This document shows, in pieces, positions 45,813 to 47,342 of a stretch of DNA of 64,000 nt; the first letter of the stretch is position 1, and each line of letters starts with the position of its first letter. Made by a program: the position numbers and the translations under genes. The notes beneath the pieces are model-generated. The model ran no database searches and was not told the origin of the DNA. It worked only from the letters and a program-made list of their open reading frames with translations. Source of the stretch: Cytophagales bacterium (GTDB lineage: Bacteria; Bacteroidota; Bacteroidia; Cytophagales; Cyclobacteriaceae); NCBI GenBank assembly GCA_025358885.1, contig JANYHW010000132.1, forward strand, positions 1-64,000, read 5' to 3'.

Positions 45813-46193
45813 TCAGAGTGATGCTTTATTGACAACCTTCCTGTCAATCCATTGCAGTCCGAGGATAAAGGCTGCGCCGAAAATCAACAGCCCCGAATAA
45901 CCCGAAATAAATTTCAGTGCACCAAAGTCCATTTTAAAACCGGTCATGCCTACGGCAATTCCACCCGCTATGACGAAGGACACTAACCCCGCGTAAAGCC
46001 AAAACATTTCCCGTGCAGAGGACTTTTCAGAACGCGCCTCCATTCGACGGAGCACACGGTCAGCAAAGCCGGAAGGCAATTCATATGCAGGTTGCCGTTT
46101 AAGAGCATTGAAGACCGTGCGATAGGCTTGTTCTTCCGAGCCGTTGCCCGCGAGTCCCTGCTCGATGTTATGTTGTATTTCTTCCTCGCTCAT
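45813..46193 (-). CDS. Putative anti-sigma factor, membrane protein
   Basis: 126 aa with TM segments, overlapping the ECF sigma gene by ATGA. Confidence 0.6.
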   Translation of the reverse strand: MSEEEIQHNIEQGLAGNGSEEQAYRTVFNALKRQPAYELPSGFADRVLRRMEARSEKSSAREMFWLYAGLVSFVIAGGIAVGMTGFKMDFGALKFISGYSGLLIFGAAFILGLQWIDRKVVNKASL

Positions 46194-46756
46194 ATTCCTT
46201 TCTCTTCCTGGCCCAGGTGCATTGCCACTTTTTCCTTCAACAAGTTTCTCGCCCTGAACAAATAATTTTTCACTGTTCCCTCCGGCATCTCTGTCACTAA
46301 ACCAATCTCTGCATAGTTCATGCCTTCCAGGTGATACAAAGTAAGTACACTTTTATATTGTACAGGCAATTGTTCAATTAATTTTATTACCCATTCTTCC
46401 AAATCTTTTTCTGACAAGATCTCTTCCGGATCTTCCGCCTCCACAAACTTCTCGGCCCAGGTTTCGTCTTCCGGCCATTCGGCAAACTCCATCTTTTGCT
46501 TCCGCATGTGGTTGATGGCATGGCGGTAGGCAATAGTAGCAATCCATGTACTGAGTCTCGACTGAAAATTGAACTCCGAAATCTTGTCAAAGACCTTCAG
46601 AAACACGTCCTGGCAGAGTTCCTCACGGTCTTCGGCGCTTTTTATCAGCCTGCCAACCATGTGGGCCACGAGCTTCTCGTTCTGCTGAATTAGCAGCCGA
46701 AACGCCCGTTTATCTCCGTTTTTTACCCTGGAGACAAAGGCCCGATCATCTGTCAT
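46190..46756 (-). CDS. ECF RNA polymerase sigma factor
   Basis: Sigma-70 region 2 (DREELCQDVFLKVFDKISEFNFQSRLSTWIATIAYRHAINHMRK) and region 4. ATG at 46756 preferred over GTG 46771, which lies in the putative -10. Confidence 0.92.
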   Translation of the reverse strand: MTDDRAFVSRVKNGDKRAFRLLIQQNEKLVAHMVGRLIKSAEDREELCQDVFLKVFDKISEFNFQSRLSTWIATIAYRHAINHMRKQKMEFAEWPEDETWAEKFVEAEDPEEILSEKDLEEWVIKLIEQLPVQYKSVLTLYHLEGMNYAEIGLVTEMPEGTVKNYLFRARNLLKEKVAMHLGQEEKGI

Positions 46757-46766
46757 TTTAAGGTTG

Positions 46767-46793
46767 GACACTAAAATACCTTTGGATGTTGCA
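46767..46793 (-). promoter_or_regulatory. Putative ECF sigma-dependent promoter (TGCAACATCC-N12-GTGTC)
   Basis: Minus TGCAACATCCAAAGGTATTTTAGTGTC directly upstream of the sigma gene. Confidence 0.55.
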
Positions 46794-46879
46794 GAAAGTA
46801 CGGATTTTTTAATGCCTGGACCACAATTTCACTACCCTCCTCCGACAGTTCAATTCACTCAAAAAATAATCAACCTCCC

Positions 46880-46906
46880 TGCAACATCCCCAACCGCATG
46901 GGTGTC
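46880..46906 (+). promoter_or_regulatory. Putative ECF sigma-dependent promoter (TGCAACATCC-N12-GTGTC)
   Basis: Plus TGCAACATCCCCAACCGCATGGGTGTC, 30 nt upstream of the ATG at 46936. Confidence 0.55.
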
Positions 46907-46935
46907 TTACCTCCCAAAACAAAAAACAATTAGCC

Positions 46936-47292
46936 ATGGACAATTCCTTAAGAGAAGTATTGATGCCTATAACCATATTCGGTAGTTTCGGCACGGCCGT
47001 TTATTTTTTTACAAAAGTGATGACCGACTACCTGCTCAAGAAGAAAATGGTGGACAAAGGTTTTGTAAATGAAGACACCCAGGCCATCTTTAAACAGCAT
47101 ATCGTCAAGGACAATAAATTCACTTCTCTCAAATGGGGGCTAATCATCTTCTTTGCAGGGATGTCTTTGATCATCATGGAGTATATTCCTGCGAGACCGG
47201 AGTCTCCCCTGCCCTACGGACTGTTTGCCGTCTCTGTCTCCCTGGGGTTTCTTATTTACTATTTCATGGTAAAGAAAGATTCCAAAGAATAA
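46936..47292 (+). CDS. Small two-TM membrane protein, function unknown
   Basis: 118 aa; divergent from the ECF sigma gene. Confidence 0.75.
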   Translation: MDNSLREVLMPITIFGSFGTAVYFFTKVMTDYLLKKKMVDKGFVNEDTQAIFKQHIVKDNKFTSLKWGLIIFFAGMSLIIMEYIPARPESPLPYGLFAVSVSLGFLIYYFMVKKDSKE

Positions 47293-47314
47293 ACCTGTAA
47301 CAATTCAAATAAAG

Positions 47315-47342
47315 GGCCGTCTTGTGGATGGCCTGTTTTTTT
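47315..47342 (+). terminator. Intrinsic terminator
   Basis: GGCCGTC-ttgtg-GATGGCC then TGTTTTTTT. Confidence 0.7.

Follow-up and report, generated by a model that had tools for sequence, protein, structure and literature searches.

The window, by which we mean the whole stretch of 64,000 nucleotides analysed here, carries on its minus strand the gene of an ECF sigma factor, followed by that of a putative anti-sigma factor. On the plus strand lie the gene of a small membrane protein, a terminator-like hairpin ending in a run of seven Ts, and the gene of an ABC permease. Two promoter-like sites facing apart occupy the spacer between the sigma gene and the small membrane protein gene (Table 1).

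Table 1. Coordinates of the genes and sites at the locus (window numbering)
Feature	Position	Strand	Description or basis
Putative anti-sigma factor, 126 aa	45813..46193	-	Position and topology: cytosolic N-terminal helices, two TM segments
ECF sigma factor, 188 aa, start ATG 46756	46190..46756	-	Sigma70_r2, Sigma70_r4_2, TIGR02937
Candidate sigma-facing promoter	46767..46793	-	TGCAACATCC (-35), N12, GTGTC (-10)
Its parts: box TGCAACATCC; spacer; GTGTC	46793-46784; 46783-46772; 46771-46767	-
Inverted repeat, left arm, 11 bp	46784..46794		Sequence
Inverted repeat, right arm, 11 bp	46879..46889		Sequence
Candidate divergent promoter towards the DUF6249 gene	46880..46906	+	TGCAACATCC, N12, GTGTC; ends 29 nt before ATG 46936
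Its parts: box; spacer; GTGTC	46880-46889; 46890-46901; 46902-46906	+
Small membrane protein, probably DUF6249-type, 118 aa	46936..47292	+	PF19762 score, alignment with orthologs and relatives, model
Terminator-like hairpin with seven Ts	47314..47341	+	Between DUF6249 and permease genes; present in a minority of orthologs
MacB_PCD/FtsX ABC permease (ADOP-like), 806 aa	47362..49782	+	Domain matches

Genes of the locus

The 188-aa protein matches Sigma70_r2 (1.3e-13), Sigma70_r4_2 (5.1e-16) and TIGR02937 (4.1e-29), all over the cut-off, and no other domain; with regions 2 and 4 only, at about 190 aa, it belongs to the ECF (group IV) sigma factors. The first-pass annotation had given ATG 46756 as its probable start, and the orthologs agree: they begin at that ATG, and we take it as the start because the sigma-side promoter keeps a near-constant distance to it. 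GTG 46771, which lies inside the -10 element, was rejected. With 10 nt between the promoter and the ATG, we predict a nearly leaderless sigma mRNA, assuming the usual distance between an ECF promoter and its start.

The start of the 126-aa gene overlaps the sigma stop codon by 4 nt (ATGA), an overlap found in most orthologs. A gene placed immediately after that of the sigma factor and coupled to it, a helical N-terminus and two TM segments are the marks of a class I anti-sigma factor, and from them we infer an anti-sigma role for this protein. The zinc motif H-x3-C-x2-C is absent from it, no Pfam or NCBIfam family, anti-sigma families included, matched it above cut-off, and a fold search against the PDB gave no usable match; in related modules, the proteins encoded at this place resemble zf-HC2 and RseA_N weakly, scoring below cut-off.

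The 118-aa protein scores 32.7 bits against PF19762 (DUF6249), for which the cut-off is 33, and its relatives at L104 and L105, alignable over their length, exceed that cut-off. It had been described as a two-TM protein faced by the second promoter; the orientation and the length stand, but the topology does not, as hydropathy peaks lie near residues 8, 62-69 and 92-96 and helices are predicted at 3-41, 63-83 and 92-117. It is thus probably a DUF6249-type protein with three TM helices. At L141, L148 and L162, DUF6249 frames have a long N-terminal extension, and the domain begins well inside the frame. A text search for DUF6249 in the literature covered here returned a single paper, an unrelated one on plants.

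A MacB_PCD/FtsX permease comes after the DUF6249 gene in most orthologous loci, and in many relatives the gap between the two is just 24-60 nt and lacks a strong hairpin. Co-transcription of the two genes is uncertain in the window, because the hairpin separates them, and it may differ among species, because only some orthologs have a hairpin. FtsX/MacB-type permeases, encoded on many contigs, form a large expansion in the window genome.

The promoter pair and its conservation

Both strands carry the same 10-nt box, 12-nt spacing and GTGTC, exactly where the first-pass annotation had located them, and the 11-bp inverted repeat that it described is likewise present in the sequence; this repeat is a by-product of the two opposed -35 boxes. 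The genome scan that it had proposed returned just these two sites: TGCAACATCC-N11..13-GTGTC matches twice in the 3.84-Mb genome, both times at this locus and facing apart, and the reversed control pattern has no match in the whole 3.84 Mb. A 36-column sequence profile of the promoter, built from relatives, found the same two sites alone at E<=2 in the window genome, whose detectable regulon is this locus alone.

The comparison with related genomes, on which the original proposal had been staked, came out in its favour: in more than 50 genomes the boxes are conserved at the orthologous place, as whole units with free spacers and at a constant distance from the sigma ATG. In a named set of about 59 loci, including Chryseolinea, Ohtaekwangia, Dawidia, Chryseosolibacter, Fulvivirga, Ekhidna and Salinivenus, most carry, ahead of the sigma gene, TGCAACAT(C/T)-N12-GTGTC or something close to it, together with another copy facing away, while the spacer letters are free. 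A looser pattern run across 59 genomes of the same genus gave about 80 matches, almost all located in the orthologous spacer, versus 3 for the reversed control. We looked for the marks of ECF-type promoters (AAC in the -35, GTC or CGT in the -10 and a fixed spacing of about 16-19): the GCAAC and GTC columns are invariant, and the spacer between the 10-nt box and GTGTC is 12 nt, in a few cases 13. Short boxes do invite chance similarity, but with conservation in dozens of genomes and controls near zero that explanation is refuted, and we give it practically no weight.

The geometry of the pair speaks for two separate elements. Next to the sigma gene, 10 nt separate the GTC from the ATG in 38 of 49 loci and 10-13 nt in 46 of the 49, and most orthologs have the box at -37 relative to this ATG; a promoter of the target class thus stands upstream of sigma in the window and in its orthologs, in line with the autoregulation that had been suggested. 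On the DUF6249 side the distance from promoter to ATG varies between 26 and 61 nt among orthologs, and the spacer between the two genes ranges from about 110 to almost 400 bp across orthologous loci. At L210 a 518-aa gene has been inserted between the promoters, with both boxes kept beside their own genes and a DUF6249-sigma gap of 1.8 kb; in G006 and G033 the two sites are on separate assembly contigs, each next to its own gene. Because the distance varies and the L210 insertion leaves both boxes in place, we favour two independent promoters over one operator, and a single palindromic operator was rejected on the same grounds.

A broader version of the operator idea, in which the inverted TGCAACATCC copies would bind a DNA-binding regulator of both divergent genes and their -35/-10 likeness would be incidental, draws on the boxes being inverted and identical in the window. 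We consider it very improbable for four reasons: (i) the distance between the copies ranges widely, up to the L210 gap; (ii) box, 12-nt spacer and GTGTC are conserved as one unit at -37 from the sigma ATG; (iii) the conserved module holds no regulator gene besides the sigma/anti-sigma pair; and (iv) paralogous sigma modules carry pairs of their own.

The two genes also travel together. A close sigma ortholog was found in 30 of the 37 genus genomes searched, and the sigma and DUF6249 genes are jointly present or jointly absent in 36 of the 37 (Fisher p 3e-6, a value that ignores kinship); in the sole discordant genome, G014, a contig breaks off at the place expected for the sigma gene. The six genus genomes that have neither gene also lack the strict promoter pattern.

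DUF6249 modules across the phylum

We searched for DUF6249 in the order and the phylum and read the surroundings of 46 genes over the Pfam cut-off. An ECF sigma gene lies within about 1.5 kb of 44 of them, in 40 cases divergently. The window genome has two further DUF6249 genes, each with its own sigma: that at L100 (G000:C50) has a matched promoter pair of its own, TGTAAC..GCGTC, and that at L113 (G000:C213) sits in a DUF6249-sigma-anti-sigma operon. At L118 and L132, DUF6249 is the first gene of such an operon.

Matched pairs recur in other divergent modules, with different letters: TGTAAC..GCGTC (at L094, as at L100), TGTAACC..GCATCC (L096), TTGTAACC..GTTGTC (L111), TGTGACC..ATAGTCT (L114), TGAAAC..GGTC (L138) and CGAAAC..GGTCAAAA (L142); several DUF6249 modules found here have a -10 of CGTC. 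Agreement between the two sides was measured in 29 modules, with sites picked by a rule blind to the pairing, and 15 modules without a strict-rule site on one or both sides were left out. The two promoters of a module agree at 7.55 of 8 positions in the -35 and 6.72 of 9 in the -10, against 6.47 and 5.28 between modules (permutation p < 5e-5, kinship ignored). Both this value and the Fisher value above overstate significance, because related genomes are not independent. The blind-rule test replaced an unsupervised two-block comparison of the spacer strands, which was significant but caught AT-rich runs and the masked L204 (all N). Each divergent module thus tends, judging from these sites, to have its own promoter sequence, matched on its two sides, and such joint divergence is expected if a single sigma factor reads both promoters of its module.

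The same data bear on whether the pair is read by another of the cell's ECF sigma factors, or redundantly by several. Overlapping ECF regulons are common, and the sharing of SM6 promoters among several sigma factors has been suggested (PMC9723704). We nevertheless hold this to be unlikely: in genus genomes without this sigma, DUF6249 and the strict pattern are missing too, the promoter letters shift in step with the adjacent module, and the paralogous module at L100, in the same genome, has a different pair.

Additional candidate targets in relatives

Outside the locus, 13 profile matches in relatives span the whole -10 box, and 12 of the 13 are directly upstream of genes. Ten precede members of three families (MacB/FtsX permeases 4, beta-lactamase family 3, DUF4097 3) and two more precede PD40 proteins. 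Partial profile matches, in which the -10 box was incomplete, fall mostly within genes, and we took them for chance. The genome G003, 77% complete and without a sigma ortholog in the search, holds one of the beta-lactamase-family sites. For scale, the window genome has 86 MacB_PCD matches, usually two per protein, or about 50 permease genes (fragments merged by eye), together with 14 beta-lactamase-family and 4 DUF4097 matches, so that the three families come to roughly 65-70 genes. Against these numbers the target set is far from random, with the qualification that the families were named after inspection of the matches. At L133 (3323-5363) a DUF6249 gene is followed directly by a beta-lactamase-family (PF00144) gene with DUF3471. 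We read the recurring extra targets as pointing to a role in envelope or antimicrobial defence.

A probable autoregulated sigma/anti-sigma module

The sites, their conservation and mutual independence, the matched divergence between modules, the co-occurrence of the genes and the target families were all read directly from sequence, and on this basis we put at about 85% the probability that the two boxes are divergent ECF-type promoters of an autoregulated sigma/anti-sigma module, read by the adjacent sigma. Recurrence across the Bacteroidota and the joint change of the promoters suggest that the sigma factor would turn on both itself and a membrane partner. The best reading of the locus is an autoregulated ECF sigma/anti-sigma module for envelope stress, with DUF6249 as its obligatory first target; in it, promoter recognition by this sigma, the anti-sigma action of the 126-aa protein, the short sigma leader and the role in envelope stress are inferred. 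Under envelope stress the product of the overlapping downstream gene, a membrane anti-sigma factor, would release sigma, and the freed sigma would transcribe its own operon (positive autoregulation, with a nearly leaderless mRNA) and the divergent DUF6249 gene, in many relatives with the MacB/FtsX-type permease as well. The regulon of relatives would include, in addition, a small number of genes for the envelope or for antimicrobial defence.

What DUF6249 does within the module is a matter on which we are more guarded. It could be a second negative regulator, for instance a co-anti-sigma factor or membrane feedback protein, whose production from the matched promoter would make the module a switch that turns itself off: DUF6249 almost always adjoins an ECF sigma gene (44 of 46), the window genome shows no target other than sigma and the DUF6249 operon, and DUF6249 sometimes comes first in the operon with sigma and anti-sigma. 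Yet DUF6249 has no sequence similarity to anti-sigma factors and no fold match in the PDB search, a dedicated anti-sigma candidate already lies downstream of sigma, and effector-like genes sometimes follow DUF6249 (the permease, or the beta-lactamase-family gene of L133), so that we regard feedback of this kind as possible but doubtful. More broadly, DUF6249 may, though this is less likely than not, be a universal signalling component of an unrecognised, phylum-wide ECF class; it would be made only when its own sigma is active and would act on the sigma/anti-sigma pair or on the stressed membrane, with many paralogous modules insulated from each other by co-diverging promoter pairs.

Relation to known systems

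The module resembles SigX and SigW of Bacillus subtilis in the AAC-containing -35, the similar spacing, the C/G-rich -10 and autoregulation, and also in the membrane anti-sigma factor encoded downstream and the link to envelope and antimicrobial-peptide stress; it differs from them in that they have large regulons, belong to Firmicutes and lack DUF6249. Sigma-I of cellulolytic clostridia is not an ECF factor and its signals are polysaccharides, two differences from the module described here. As here, several paralogous alternative sigma factors per genome are described for the sigma-I system (PMC6056542).

Nearest in logic among the studied systems of Bacteroidota, on the excerpts of the two reports that describe them, are EcfO-Reo and CirY-CirZ of Bacteroides/Phocaeicola, ECF sigma/anti-sigma pairs tied to envelope stress or antibacterial toxins, in which the sigma gene itself rises strongly upon loss of the anti-sigma factor or upon induction; the regulon of CirY is small and centres on the CirY locus (PMC9308784, PMC13114119). 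By the same excerpts the differences are three: (i) Reo is large and spans both membranes, while the anti-sigma candidate here has 126 aa; (ii) the neighbour genes differ, being Spy-like at cir, with unlinked nigD genes for EcfO, and DUF6249 here; and (iii) the excerpts mention neither a DUF6249 partner nor a divergent promoter pair (PMC9308784, PMC13114119). The nearest mapped promoters are the SM6 promoters of Flavobacterium psychrophilum, which, unlike the pair described here, cover T9SS genes and many other targets (PMC9723704).

Throughout a phylum, a domain of unknown function is here linked to a single regulatory class (44 of the 46 sampled genes), and for that reason DUF6249 becomes testable, by inducing the sigma factor and examining the membrane. 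Modules whose promoter pairs are matched yet different, of which there are dozens, constitute a natural data set for the joint change of ECF sigma factors and their promoters. They might also supply insulated switches for use in Bacteroidota, in which standard promoters work poorly.

Variant module architectures

At L148 and L162 the opposed -35 boxes almost touch (GGGTTTCAGTGAAACCC, GGGTTTCAGATGAAACCC), so that the two promoters seem to be set tightly back to back. In six modules (L150, L154, L157, L158, L161 and L163) the DUF6249 side carries a second promoter in tandem, which brings the ECF-like sites to three. At L123 (G038:C42, 3760-4292), a two-gene cassette lies between DUF6249 and sigma, and its second gene resembles a ParE/RelE-type toxin.
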